A DNA stretch of 64,000 nucleotides from Aureibaculum flavum (GTDB lineage Bacteria; Bacteroidota; Bacteroidia; Flavobacteriales; Flavobacteriaceae), in NCBI RefSeq assembly GCF_016406085.1, contig NZ_JAEHFJ010000001.1, positions 372,001 through 436,000 on the forward strand. Direction: 5' to 3'. How positions within the stretch are numbered: position 1 is the stretch's first letter; every line of letters starts with the position of its first letter. A model generated the notes under the pieces. That model did not search any database. It saw only the letters and a program-made list of their open reading frames with translations, and had not been told where the DNA came from. The position numbers and the translations under genes are program-made. Of this stretch, positions 10,333 through 16,950 are shown piece after piece.

Positions 10333-10380
10333 TTTACGGATAGTTCATTTACGTTTGTATAATTGTTGTATGTCATTTAA
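10333..10380 (+). repeat. Left boundary copy of the cassette repeat
   Basis: The segment CGTTTGTATAATTGTTGTAT (10352-10371) is a variant of the boundary found at 13346, 14312 and 15118, whose common core is GTTTATACAATTGTTGT. It follows the last ordinary gene and precedes the hipB promoter region. No matching complementary end was found after hipT. Confidence 0.6.
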
Positions 10381-10404
10381 AAAATCTTGATTAGAATATT
10401 ATAT

Positions 10405-10505
10405 TTATATGCTAAAACATATAAATTAATGTTTTAGCATCAAATTATATCTAATTGCATATAATTTATATATATTTGTTTAATATTATATTTAAAAGCA
10501 TATAA
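10405..10505 (+). promoter_or_regulatory. Candidate HipB operator/promoter region
   Basis: A perfect 12-bp inverted repeat, ATGCTAAAACAT (10409-10420) and ATGTTTTAGCAT (10429-10440), is separated by 8 bases. The octamer GCATATAA occurs at 10457-10464 and 10498-10505 and, inverted, at 10405-10412; the last copy touches the hipB start. A -7-like TATATTTG lies at 10471-10478. Repeated operator half-sites before a HipB-type repressor fit autoregulation. Confidence 0.55.
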
Positions 10506-10714
10506 TGAAGCAATTAGCAGAGTTTGTCAAAGAACGGAGAAAAGAAGTTAATCTGACTCAGAAAGAATTCGCTGAACGAGCAGGAGTAGCACTAACTGTA
10601 GTACGTAAAATCGAACAGGGTAAAACGAATCTAAATATGGATAAGGTAAATCTAGTTCTTAATATGTTTGGACATGAATTAGCTCCTGTTAATAGTAAAA
10701 AACGGGCTGAATGA
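10505..10714 (+). CDS. hipB: HipB-like XRE antitoxin/repressor
   Basis: A 69-residue protein that is one helix-turn-helix XRE domain: VKERRKEVNLTQKEFAERAG then VALTVVRKIEQGKTNLNMDK. HipB proteins dimerise, bind operators before their own operon and repress it together with HipA. The stop codon overlaps the ATG of the next gene (ATGA), giving translational coupling. It is the first of a three-gene unit with a split HipA. Length is at the short end for HipB but normal for the 'y4mF' type found in Bacteroidetes. Confidence 0.85.
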   Translation: MKQLAEFVKERRKEVNLTQKEFAERAGVALTVVRKIEQGKTNLNMDKVNLVLNMFGHELAPVNSKKRAE

Positions 10715-11049
10715 GAAAGGGAAAGGTATTTTATAAAAACCATTTGGCTGGCATTATTACGGAGACGAATGAGGGCGAATATGAATTTCAATATAACAAT
10801 CAATACGCCAAAGATCATCCAAATGACTTCATTACGTTCACTATGCCAGTTAGAGAGAAGCCATATAAAGAGAAGCGACTCTTTCCTTTTTTTGAAGGAT
10901 TGATACCTGAAGGGTGGTTGTTAGATATAGCTTCCAAAAACTGGAAAATCAATAAAAATGATCGTATGGGATTACTTCTGACCTGCTGTCAGAATTGTAT
11001 CGGTGCAGTAAGTGTGGAACCTATAACAGAAGAAGAAAATGGAGCATAA
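10711..11049 (+). CDS. hipS: HipA N-subdomain protein (HipS-like)
   Basis: A 112-residue protein matching the N-terminal subdomain 1 of HipA (the 'couple_hipA' region). VFYKNHLAGIITETNEGEYE is followed by the strand pattern YEFQYNNQY and the motif LFPFFEGLIPEGWLLDIA, in which HipA has 'F.NLLPEG'. The kinase domain is in the separate downstream gene, so this is the split, three-gene form known from the E. coli HipBST system, where HipS rather than HipB neutralises the HipT kinase. It overlaps hipB by ATGA and the kinase gene by 11 bases. Whether it acts as the antitoxin here is inferred from that relative. Confidence 0.8.
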   Translation: MRKGKVFYKNHLAGIITETNEGEYEFQYNNQYAKDHPNDFITFTMPVREKPYKEKRLFPFFEGLIPEGWLLDIASKNWKINKNDRMGLLLTCCQNCIGAVSVEPITEEENGA

Positions 11050-11986
11050 ATGCTTATATTGTTATGAACCTGTTGAAAATGAACTGGACTTTCACGAAAA
11101 GTGTTCAATTGAATTCTTTGGAACACCAACATCTCCTAAAATTGAATATTCGCTTGACCAAATGGACGAACTTGCGAAAAATGTCGTAGAGCGAAGTATT
11201 GCTATCCCAGGAGTTCAGCCGAAACTATCTATGTCTATGGTCAAAGAAACCAAGGAGAATTCGGATACACGACTGACTGTAGTTGGTGCATTAGGTGGAC
11301 AATTTATATTTAAACCACCTACTGACAGATTTCCAGAAATGCCTGAAAACGAACATGTAACAATGCGAATAGGTGAAGCTTTAGGAATTCGAGTAGTACC
11401 ATCATCATTGATTCGAATTTTATCTGGAGAACTTTCCTATATAACTAAACGAGTTGACCGAACAGAAACTGGAGAAAAAATCCACATGCTCGATATGTTT
11501 CAGATCACTGAAGCATTTGATAAGTATAAAGGTTCAATGGAGAAAATTGGAAAAGCATTAGACCACTATTCTAGTAACACATTGCTTGATAAAACCTTTT
11601 TCTTTGACTTAGCTCTTTTCTCCTTTTTAACGGGAAATAGCGATATGCACTTAAAGAACTTCTCGATGATCGAAAGCCCTTCTGGTTGGATTTTGTCTCC
11701 TGCCTATGATCTTTTGAATGTTGCAATTGTGTTTCCAGAAGATACAGAAGAACTTGCACTGACAATAGTTGGGAAGAAAAAGAAGTTAAAACGTGAACAC
11801 TTTGAACAGTTAGCAGAAGGATTAGGATTAACTCCTAAACAAATTAAAGGAGCTTTTAATCGAATGATAAAGAATAAATCAAAAGCATTCAATTGGATTG
11901 ATCGATCGTTTCTATCAAATGAAATGAAAACTGCCTATAAAGAGTTGCTAAAAAGTAGATACAAACAATTAGAACATAAAGAATAA
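11039..11986 (+). CDS. hipT: HipA/HipT-like serine/threonine kinase toxin
   Basis: A 315-residue kinase of the HipA C-terminal family. It opens with a zinc-finger-like CLYCYEPV...FHEKC stretch (residues 5-25), usual in the Bacteroidetes form and absent from E. coli HipA. The glycine-rich, autophosphorylation loop is SIAIPGVQPKLSM near residue 53, with serines that can be phosphorylated. GGQFIFKPP holds the ATP lysine. ITKRVDR, FLTGNSDMHLKNFSM (catalytic Asp and Asn) and SPAYDLLN (metal Asp) complete the active site. HipA-family kinases phosphorylate aminoacyl-tRNA synthetases (GltX for HipA, TrpS for HipT) and stop translation; the target here is unknown. All key residues are present, so it should be active. 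Confidence 0.85.
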   Translation: MEHKCLYCYEPVENELDFHEKCSIEFFGTPTSPKIEYSLDQMDELAKNVVERSIAIPGVQPKLSMSMVKETKENSDTRLTVVGALGGQFIFKPPTDRFPEMPENEHVTMRIGEALGIRVVPSSLIRILSGELSYITKRVDRTETGEKIHMLDMFQITEAFDKYKGSMEKIGKALDHYSSNTLLDKTFFFDLALFSFLTGNSDMHLKNFSMIESPSGWILSPAYDLLNVAIVFPEDTEELALTIVGKKKKLKREHFEQLAEGLGLTPKQIKGAFNRMIKNKSKAFNWIDRSFLSNEMKTAYKELLKSRYKQLEHKE

Positions 11987-12167
11987 GACGAAACCACTAC
12001 TACCACTATCATCCATTGTGTCAGTAGCTAAGCTTCGGGCTTTTACCAAAAATTGCTATCTTTAAACCATGGCTTAATTCTCTTGGAATAGTCCATGCAA
12101 GATCCGATAATTCCACAACAAACCAAATTCATAGACGTTACAGACAATCATAACAAATCAATAATTG

Positions 12168-15762: not shown

Positions 15763-16186
15763 ATCAGCAAAAGAAAATTTTGATTTTTTAGATGATATTT
15801 TAGAGGAAATATCACCTGTAGAAATGAAAAAAACGGAACAACGTATGCTTAATGCAGAAAGTATCCGTAAAGCTATGGATGCTAAAGGTTGGAATAATAA
15901 CAGGCTTTTAGAAGCTTTAAATATGAAAAGTCCAAGCATAATAACAAAATGGCTTAGTGGAACTCATAATTTCACTCAAGACACCTTGGTTGAAATAGGT
16001 GTAGTGTTAGATGTAAATTTCTTCGCAATAAAAGAACAAAACATTACAATTAATTTTAGTTTTCCAGTAATGGAAAATAAAACGAGTGGTTTTGATAGCT
16101 ATAGTAGTTTGGATTATATACTTAATTCTCATAAAATAAATGTTCCAGGCTCTAATCAAAATAAATGTAAAGAATATCAAGCTTAA
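15755..16186 (+). CDS. XRE-type antitoxin with C-terminal chaperone-addiction-like tail
   Basis: A 143-residue protein from the ATG at 15755; a TTG at 15740 would add five residues, but the ATG overlaps the toxin stop as expected for coupling. Residues 35-95 are an XRE helix-turn-helix (ESIRKAMDAKGWNNNRLLEA, NMKSPSIITKWLSGTHNFTQ). After the domain comes an extended, hydrophobic, low-complexity tail (ITINFSFPVMENK then FDSYSSLDYILN). In TAC systems such a tail, the chaperone addiction (ChAD) segment, makes the antitoxin unstable unless a SecB-like chaperone binds it. The next gene encodes such a chaperone 2 bases away. The tail function is inference from that arrangement. Confidence 0.72.
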   Translation: MNKSAKENFDFLDDILEEISPVEMKKTEQRMLNAESIRKAMDAKGWNNNRLLEALNMKSPSIITKWLSGTHNFTQDTLVEIGVVLDVNFFAIKEQNITINFSFPVMENKTSGFDSYSSLDYILNSHKINVPGSNQNKCKEYQA

Positions 16187-16188
16187 TA

Positions 16189-16617
16189 ATGGAAACAGAA
16201 AAACAATTTAATTTTCAAATTAAAGGTATTGAAATAGTTGAAAACAGTATTGTTGCACCTAAAAACCGCATAGATAATAATACTGTATTTGGTTTCGATT
16301 TACAATTAAATCAAAGTTTTAATTTAGACAGAGAGTTAGTCATTGTTACATGTGTAATTAACGTATCAGATAATGACACAAAAGATAAATTAGGTCATAT
16401 TAAGGCAAGTTGTCTATACTCCGTGGAAAAATTAGAAAAATATATAGATAAAGAAAAAAGCACAACAACTTTACCTGATGACGTTACGGTTATGTTAAAC
16501 TCTATTTCAATATCAACAGTTAGAGGTGTAATGTATGGTATGTTTAGAGGAACTTTTTTAAATGGAGCTATACTTCCTGTTGTTAATCCTTCAAAGCCAG
16601 CTGACAAAAAGAAATAA
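16189..16617 (+). CDS. SecB-like chaperone of the TAC module
   Basis: A 142-residue protein with the SecB fold pattern: strands FNFQIKGIEIVENSIVAPKN and FGFDLQLNQSFNLDRELVIV, a long stretch of alternating residues, and at the end ISTVRGVMYGMFRGTFLNGA followed by ILPVVNPSK. The last segment aligns with the SecB 'R..I..L..RG.FP.L.LAPVNF' region that precedes the C-terminus. Solitary SecB-like proteins beside XRE antitoxins are the hallmark of toxin-antitoxin-chaperone systems (e.g. HigBA-SecB of Mycobacterium tuberculosis), in which the chaperone folds and protects the antitoxin. The gene ends in the first TAA of a run of ten tandem TAA triplets. Only one short, AT-rich spacer separates it from the antitoxin gene. 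Confidence 0.75.
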   Translation: METEKQFNFQIKGIEIVENSIVAPKNRIDNNTVFGFDLQLNQSFNLDRELVIVTCVINVSDNDTKDKLGHIKASCLYSVEKLEKYIDKEKSTTTLPDDVTVMLNSISISTVRGVMYGMFRGTFLNGAILPVVNPSKPADKKK

Positions 16618-16646
16618 TAATAATAATAATAATAATAATAATAATA
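16615..16646 (+). repeat. (TAA)10 microsatellite containing the SecB-like stop codon
   Basis: Ten uninterrupted TAA triplets run from 16615 to 16644. The first is the stop codon of the SecB-like gene, so the tract gives ten in-frame stops followed by TATATA. Confidence 0.95.
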
Positions 16647-16791
16647 TATAATGCCCTTTTTATTTCAAAGCTCCTAATTGTAGCACCTAATCTTATATCA
16701 AAACCCTAGTTTTTTTCATTAAAATTAAAAAAAAATACTGAATCAATTTTGTTTTGAATTTTATGATGTGTTTTAAATCGACATAAAACGC

Positions 16792-16950
16792 CACACAACA
16801 AAGGTAATCGTTGCACAAGCATCAAAAATGACATATTGAACAAATAATCGGCTTGATTGTAGCTATTTTAAGAGACCCTATAATTTTTTTCAACTAGATT
16901 ACCACCTTGTTTTGCACTTAAGAAGAACTGAGCTAAAAAACAAACAATTC
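16792..16950 (+). repeat. Intercassette repeat E after the TAC operon
   Basis: Opens with CACACAACAA (16792-16801), the complement of the boundary TTGTTGTGTG at 15129-15138. Continues with the same 140-base module as repeat D (landmarks GTAATCGTTGCACAAGCATC and ATTACCACCTTGTTTTGCA). No further boundary copy is visible downstream, so this is probably the end of the array. No gene lies in 16618-17308. Confidence 0.8.

Follow-up and report, generated by a model that had tools for sequence, protein, structure and literature searches.

A probable integron-like gene-cassette system of Bacteroidota with a tyrosine recombinase outside the IntI clade

Introduction

The attC sites of integrons have the core consensus GTTRRRY / RYYYAAC. 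When folded, attC presents an R box, an L box, an unpaired spacer and extrahelical bases, according to the text consulted in PMC11641012. The extra domain of the recombinase is described as the mark of the IntI integron (excerpts of PMC9668308 and PMC9024848) and the IntI-specific insertion as essential to integron function (excerpt of PMC8138268); the same excerpt sets out an integron-like tyrosine recombinase subgroup, the insertion-less members of which are there tied to no cassette arrays. In Treponema integrons the integrase is transcribed towards attI and the cassettes, as in the Bacteroidota loci described here, but Treponema carry intI genes and these loci do not (excerpt of PMC3607928). 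Bacteroidota are among the phyla listed with integrons (excerpt of PMC8618304), and a 2022 survey reports a single complete Bacteroidetes integron, in Salinibacter ruber, only In0 elements having been found in Bacteroidetes earlier (excerpt of PMC9024848). In the open-licence PMC literature, preprints excluded, our searches listed nothing that describes a cassette system of this kind for Flavobacteria or Bacteroidota, and nothing pairing a HARP domain with an integrase.

Results

Units and junctions of the Aureibaculum flavum array

The window, a 64-kb stretch of the Aureibaculum flavum genome, contains the following elements.

10354..10367, + strand: attI-like boundary 1, TTTGTATAATT directly before GTT; opens a HipBST-like toxin-antitoxin unit whose 3' end is unrecognisable
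13321..13361, + strand: attI-like boundary 2, palindrome TATAAACGCTCCCGAAGTATCGGGATGTTTATA, then CAATT directly before GTT; left edge of the strain G200 difference
13359..14077, + strand: cassette B, ends GTTGTAAGC / GCTTACAAC; gene 13384-14061, 225 aa
14078..14324, + strand: hybrid junction; IS110-end-like AAAGTACGACGGTAAAAAAC, promoter-like TACATTTG (14182-14189), palindrome, ...TTTATACCATT
14325..14794, + strand: cassette C, ends GTTGTGGTTA / TAACCACAAC, 10/10; gene 14365-14787, lipoprotein-like by eye
14792..14906, + strand: divergent attC-like site of cassette C, AAC-ACC-AGTAATC ... GATTACC-ACCTT-GTT; missed by model R1
14907..15130, + strand: hybrid junction; remnant of an IS110-like end, TACATTTG at 15020-15027, attI-like right arm CGTTTATACAATT
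15131..16799, + strand: cassette D, ends GTTGTGTGTC / GCCACACAAC, 9/10; three genes matching candidate defence system PDC-M64
16797..16911, + strand: divergent attC-like site of cassette D, AAC-AAA-GGTAATC ... GATTACC-ACCTT-GTT
16923..16946, + strand: IS110-end-like AAGAACTGAGCTAAAAAACAAACA; point where strain G200 collinearity restarts

A sequence-only reading had described three units with unit-specific complementary ends, and these are present: the ends are complementary at 9/10 bases in unit 13359..14077 (GTTGTAAGCA/GGCTTACAAC), at 10/10 in 14325..14794 and at 9/10 in 15131..16799. The background was counted in the same window as GTTG starts with their own complement at 9/10 bases or better, ending in AAC and lying 400-1800 nt off. 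On the + strand outside the array 9/193 starts have such a complement (10/10 in 0/193), on the - strand, taken whole and including the array, 16/240, and among boundary-core starts in the window 3/4. The HipBST-like unit (start 10365) has no such end; its best match within 400-1800 nt is 7/10, and one 8/10 complement lies 3.7 kb off. The ankyrin unit (12137) had been said to fit more loosely, a claim that is unsupported because no end complement reaches 8/10, and we do not treat it as a cassette. The 225-aa product of cassette B has no Pfam match at E ≤ 0.01.

The same reading had noted long spacers. They are present but are not simple attC sites; the junctions are hybrids of IS110-like ends with promoter-like and attI-like modules, the latter including palindromes, and two of them follow a divergent attC-like site. 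The box TACATTTG we take to be promoter-like on the consensus TANNTTTG. A pattern for the promoter-attI leader gave no match. Rfam searched at the gathering threshold with the window and four array loci returned no attC-like family; its matches were one cobalamin riboswitch and two tRNAs.

Unit ends co-vary

When a model that takes no account of the end codes sets the unit limits, 174 of 198 units have own ends matching at 6/7 bases or better (24 have no match at this level), versus 7/252 junctions, and a permutation test of the co-variation of the codes gave 0/2000. Units with neither site found by end matching behave alike, with matching own ends in 15/16. The 280 cassettes carry 146 distinct codes, and RRRY follows GTT in only 18 of them (GTT and AAC themselves being required by the search). 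Junctions are 100-140 bp long in 120/160 cases; in 246/280 units the longest ORF has the sense orientation. A chain scan of 43 named loci found chains of four or more units in 7 and no unit at all in 11; in 20 loci from 18 other families, chains of two or more units occurred in 9. The initial chain search, run without code filters, was overwhelmed by chance pairs.

attC-like sites

An attC model, R1, was trained on sites found via end matching and was built with padded site arms because MAFFT alone failed to align the site middles. At family loci with a recombinase R1 has two or more matches on the integrase strand in 35 of 40 searched: 18/20 in a first set (counted by eye) and 17/20 in a second, where all matches (89/89) lie on the integrase strand. 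Loci L064 and L071 have one match each, L163, L170 and L173 none, and in the named loci 2/48 matches, both at L109, are on the opposite strand. The control gave a single match (E 0.066) across 448 kb from 32 loci, and R1 matched 5 of 20 loci from 18 other families. Within the window R1 has no attC match, and the window array may therefore be a relic or need something else.

An attC-like hairpin forms in two of three correctly placed sites, the DNA folds of which have z-scores of -4.5 and -3.4 and contain the R/L stem; in the third (L073) z is -2.6 and the R/L stem is not the best fold. The L''/L' arms co-vary, and they pair within junctions, whereas the codes pair within units. These sites possess the features of folded attC: an R box, an L box, unpaired spacers and extrahelical, mismatched bases. 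They differ from IntI attC in an R code that is not GTTRRRY and in a conserved A.C mismatch after a 10-bp stem.

The recombinase

No integrase lies inside the array, in agreement with the sequence-only reading, but a candidate is encoded on another contig of the same genome (G000:C6:5519-6361), where the boundary core recurs next to it together with an array of five cassettes. The core, GTTTATACAATT directly before GTTGG, is located 48 bp past the stop codon, with the five code-matched units downstream. Relatives of this tyrosine recombinase are encoded in 122/199 genomes of the family Flavobacteriaceae and in 69/198 across the phylum Bacteroidota. In a sample of the genus only 5/17 genomes have the integrase (E ≤ 1e-60); in strain G199 the locus contains cassettes, yet the strain has no integrase match at this threshold. 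The recombinase sits beside arrays: at 12/21 loci a code-matched unit begins 44-96 bp past its matched end, in the position of attI, and the other 9 have no such adjoining unit. Many members possess an extra N-terminal domain of ~75 aa, another difference from IntI integrons.

Signs of cassette movement

Locus L062 holds four identical 407-bp cassettes. Their identity starts at GTT (0-1 bp further left) and runs for 470 bp to the next GTT, and the left contexts diverge at the base before GTT or one before that. Strain G200 is collinear with the window at 98.8% to 13370 and again at 96.6% from 16923; between these points the two strains differ in their cassettes and the flanks are common to both, so that sister strains do not have the same genes fixed in this place. 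These genomic footprints indicate that the cassettes are mobile and that their borders lie exactly at GTT.

Discussion

The units are very probably mobile gene cassettes that belong to a Bacteroidota system resembling integrons. Co-varying ends, an adjoining recombinase, strain-specific cassettes and attC-like folds all favour the distinct cassette system that had been suggested for this phylum. As far as sequence can tell, the case is made by the anatomy of the units, their co-variation and orientation, the borders of duplicates, strain-specific content at one locus and the association with a recombinase. In the mechanism that we propose, an Xer-like tyrosine recombinase, sense-oriented just upstream of attI, would recombine sites with an AAC...GTT core. 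A cassette would consist of GTT, the gene and an R'' arm (...AAC), followed by an attC hairpin of ~120 bp (R''/L''...L'/R'), with crossover at or within GTT. The seven variable bases 3' of GTT would move with the cassette and pair with its own R'', and the full R stem would therefore exist only in the excised circle. We infer that the reaction is carried out by this recombinase, that its substrate is a folded single strand and that cassettes circularise; acting in trans on dispersed attI-like sites, the C6 integrase may have given rise to the window array. Several observations count against this reading: the recombinase lacks the insertion that is described as essential to integron function, R1 has no match in the window, some loci have few or no R1 matches or units, a minority of units have unmatched ends, and the integrase is missing from strain G199 and most of the genus sample at the threshold used.

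Much of this logic is common to IntI integrons, which likewise have attI beside a tyrosine recombinase, head-to-tail cassettes, the AAC/GTT core, own-end matching and IS110-family insertion in attC, and an IntI integron that had been overlooked, or a CALIN derived from it, would account for it. An IntI locus in a Calditrichia MAG (L142) also has own-end matches of 8-10 bases, in a chain of four, and two of five members score over the cut-off of NCBIfam NF040815 'tyrosine recombinase/integron integrase'. The proteins speak against this. The IntI-specific segment has 25 residues in the Aureibaculum protein and in each complete Bacteroidota row versus 56 in six IntI rows, and in a tree of 62 rows the six form one clade (100/100) that excludes the Bacteroidota rows. 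TIGR02249 scores 188-210 bits in two stretches in the five members tested, below the cut-off of 265, versus 437-487 bits in one stretch in the six IntI rows, and has no match above cut-off in the Aureibaculum genome. Together with the low fit to GTTRRRY, this makes an overlooked IntI integron highly unlikely. Judged by the missing insertion, the position outside the IntI clade and the off-consensus core, the system is integron-like in its working but not an IntI integron. Its integrases may belong to the integron-like tyrosine recombinase subgroup outlined in the excerpt of PMC8138268.

Complementary ends, with IS110-like ends at several junctions, could also mark non-autonomous transposons (MITEs or IS passengers) whose terminal inverted repeats let a transposase move each unit. 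We give this scarcely any credence: the repeats vary from unit to unit, the units follow one another head to tail next to a tyrosine recombinase, most junctions being 100-140 bp long, and duplicated units are identical exactly from GTT to GTT while their left contexts differ. That the paired ends are instead mRNA structure (a terminator or transcript-protecting stem), with ordinary recombination between repeats varying the genes, would suit the abundant hairpins and sense-oriented ORFs; its probability is negligible, given that identity ends exactly at GTT, that L''/L' pair within junctions and codes within units, and that a recombinase is associated.

Beyond the cassette reading, we tentatively propose, at somewhat less than even confidence, a second great integron lineage in Bacteroidota with non-IntI recombinases. 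Folded-site capture would have arisen or persisted in an insertion-less Xer-like branch; the N-terminal domain that many members possess, perhaps related to the HARP/DRD domains that bind branched DNA, may recognise the hairpin instead, and in some genomes the integrase would act in trans on numerous dispersed landing pads, each a promoter plus attI.

A search keyed to the extra IntI domain would presumably overlook the loci described here, which suggest that the stock of cassette genes is large. The system makes the need for the IntI insertion in folded-DNA-site recombination directly testable.

The IS110 family is also met inside attC, which speaks for the cassette reading. As with the IS1111-attC insertion sequences named in the excerpt of PMC11187229, an IS110-family element lies at one attC end, between R'' and L''; host and site here are those of Bacteroidota. 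One intact case, read fully (L075), has an IS110 transposase between R'' and L'', and L077 has a second transposase.

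Units of the window array and their counterparts in sister strains

The sequence-only reading described three units with complementary ends in the window (G000:C1:372001-436000; own genome 4.75 Mb, 40 contigs), and all three pairs are present there as described. Three of the four window starts that carry the boundary core, an attI-like sequence ahead of GTT, have their own complement at ≥ 9/10 positions 400-1800 nt downstream; the background at GTTG starts is 9/193 elsewhere on the + strand and 16/240 on the - strand. The HipBST-like unit (10365) has no own complement at ≥ 9/10 in that range, and the ankyrin unit (12137), earlier counted as fitting loosely, gave no matched end in the window end-complement search, so that such a fit is not supported.

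Features of the window
10505-11986, HipBST-like set: HTH protein, separate HipA N-terminal domain protein, HipA_C protein
13359-14077, cassette B
14325-14794, cassette C
15131-16799, cassette D
53107-53323 (-), cobalamin riboswitch (99.7 bits)

The three genes at 10505-11986, also retained by sister strain G200, form a toxin-antitoxin set akin to HipBST. Cassettes C and D each end in an attC-like site, the two sites being closely similar (arms AGTAATC or GGTAATC/GATTACC); a search of the window array with R1, our covariance model of the attC-like site, returned no site. The array is composed of modules, each an IS110-like end, a promoter-like box and an attI-like palindrome.

The cassette reading had been made to depend on whether relatives carry the same genes at the same place. 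Window positions 6001 to 13370 are collinear in G200 (98.8%), as is the sequence from 16923 on (96.6%), and between these common flanks G200 has different cassettes, four of them with 10/10 ends (Barstar; HTH-membrane protein, by eye; recombinase-like protein; NB-ARC protein); two further cores in the interval had no matched end in the same end search. The product of one G200 cassette gene (locus L187, 12858-14165), 436 aa long, combines a tyrosine recombinase domain with an additional C-terminal part; cassettes can therefore take a recombinase relative as cargo. Matches of sister strain G199 to the window cover 10522-12094 and resume at 17046; the sequence between differs, and despite this differing content an integrase search of G199 gave no match at E ≤ 1e-60.

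A recombinase adjoining arrays

The boundary core recurs in the own genome outside the window. On contig C6 it lies 48 bp past the end of the gene for a 280-aa tyrosine recombinase (Pfam: Phage_int_SAM_4 and Phage_integrase), and next come five units that share one orientation with it, every one with complementary ends of its own [four 10/10, one 9/10; for example GTTACCATAC/GTATGGTAAC and GTTGTAGCAC/GTGCTACAAC]. The earlier statement that no integrase is visible holds for the window array; the genome encodes a candidate on C6. Recombinase relatives occur in 122/199 genomes of the family at E ≤ 1e-40 (family and genus being groupings as given by the genome search tool). Among hand-picked loci, clear chains of at least three units, counted by eye, lie downstream of the recombinase in 14 of the first 21 (L017, L061, L062, L066, L067, L069, L070, L072-L078); these supply the tyrosine recombinase that had been sought beside an array. 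If only the side downstream of the recombinase is considered, the chains comprise 115 units with 95 junctions; 74 junctions measure 110-140 bp with AAC and GTT counted in.

At several places in the own genome R'', the unit's own complementary end, is followed by an IS110-like end linked to a TACATTTG promoter-like box and to a palindrome that closes with TTTATACAATT before GTT, or similar, which is the attI-like sequence present beside the integrase. A matched end (≥ 9/10) lies downstream of 10 of the 16 attI-like starts examined in this genome. At locus L075 a 321-aa IS110-family transposase (Transposase_20, DEDD_Tnp_IS110) sits within an attC, between R'' (CGCCAAC, then AAAGAACTGAG...) and the resumed L''...L'-R'; IS1111 elements are described as targeting one end of attC sites (PMC11187229).

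Co-variation of the ends and the attC-like site

Within-unit ends do co-vary in relatives, as the sequence-only reading proposed to check. With units delimited by R1, the code (the seven variable bases after GTT) matched its own R'' at ≥ 6/7 in 85/95 units of a first set, 27/34 from named loci outside the model and 62/69 of a third set (174/198 pooled), against 4/121, 2/45 and 1/86 (7/252) across junctions and 3.6%, 2.6% and 2.5% of non-own pairings; some low-scoring units enclose an insertion or a site that R1 missed. None of 2000 permutations reached the observed mean of the first set. An A.C mismatch at position 11 is found in 84/95, 23/34 and 55/69 units, respectively. A stricter choice over 129 loci, requiring A at position 11, gave 280 candidate cassettes in 68 loci, 20 of which have one unit each and may include chance occurrences. 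These carry 146 distinct codes; the longest ORF is in sense orientation in 246/280, and GTTRRRY fits 18/280. The first code triplet (positions 4-6) is one of GTA, GTG, GGC, AGC, ACC, AGG, GCC and ATG in 258/280, a near-restriction that hints at recognition rules.

Junctions are laid out as AAC, 3 nt, L''...L', 5 or 6 nt, GTT, and L'' and L' co-vary (for example GTGTATA/TATACAC, GGCTATA/CATAGCC, GGTTAAC/GTTAACC). The attC-like hairpin for which folding had been suggested appeared in part: two of three correctly placed sites form the L''/L' stem in single-stranded DNA folding, the third not as its best fold. R1 covers AAC to GTT alone, codes excluded; it was seeded with sites from end matching, a limitation that held-out sets offset in part. 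Its matches at E ≤ 1 numbered 145 over 587 kb, a few being opposite-strand shadows. In 20 named loci, 46 of the 48 matches at E ≤ 0.05 lie on the integrase strand (the other two both in L109), as do 89/89 in a further batch of 20, where 17 loci have at least two matches and the remaining three are L163 and L170, only ~2 kb long, and L173 (10.4 kb). Control sequence (448 kb, 32 loci) yielded one match (E 0.066).

Spread, cargo and probable movement

Phylum-wide, with up to nine candidates scored per genome, a relative at E ≤ 1e-80 is present in 69/198 genomes and 45/102 genera. Scanning 43 named loci revealed chains of at least four units in seven (Rufibacter, Flavobacteriaceae S0862, Winogradskyella ursingii, Seonamhaeicola aphaedonensis, Algibacter onchidii, a Sphingobacteriales MAG and Bacteroidetes GWF2_41_31); in 11 the chain scan found no unit, several of these being short contigs or outside Bacteroidota. 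Among 20 loci with a relative at that threshold of E ≤ 1e-80, from 18 other families, nine have chains of at least two units, with 0 or 1 strong unit per locus in reversed sequence, and R1, an own-family model, matches in five.

The 78 cassette proteins sampled gave matches to 43 Pfam families, each of the 25 listed matching one or two proteins, and to 24 defence models, one protein each. In the window are HipBST-like genes, genes of unknown function and a unit whose three genes match the candidate defence system PDC-M64.

Locus L062 contains a 407-bp cassette in four 100% identical copies with differing neighbours. Identity extends from GTT, or up to 1 bp left of it, across attC to the next GTT, where the codes diverge. 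At L160 (3467-8219) a two-cassette block is apparently duplicated in tandem, exactly over > 2 kb; an assembly error is possible.

Relation to IntI integrons and other recombinases

Judged from sequence, the system would function like an integron but lacks the defining feature of IntI integrons, as indicated by insertion length, TIGR02249 scores and clade. Bacteroidota proteins complete in the IntI-insertion region have 25 residues there, against 56 in six IntI rows. TIGR02249 (cut-off 265) scores these rows as IntI at 437-487 bits in one stretch, and the five Bacteroidota recombinases tested at 188-210 bits in two. The IntI rows form a single clade (100/100) with the Bacteroidota proteins outside, in a tree of which many other forks are open. 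Own-end matching is not peculiar to the Bacteroidota system, since it was also seen at one IntI locus. According to Smyshlyaev et al. (PMC8138268), the insertion is essential for integron function, though incompletely conserved in their integron-like subgroup; the Bacteroidota recombinases may therefore be unexplained members of that subgroup. In pointing towards attI, the integrase has the orientation described for Treponema integrons (PMC3607928).

The best solved relatives by sequence are archaeal Xer-like 4a8e and XerA 5hxy, and also IntI4 2a3v, in two stretches; Foldseek likewise ranked XerA at the top and placed IntI4 third, all at modest TM-scores. Many members have an additional N-terminal domain that weakly resembles HARP and XPB DRD domains in sequence and fold; the own protein lacks this domain, as do L059, a relative from its genus, and the 305-aa proteins of L063 and L070.
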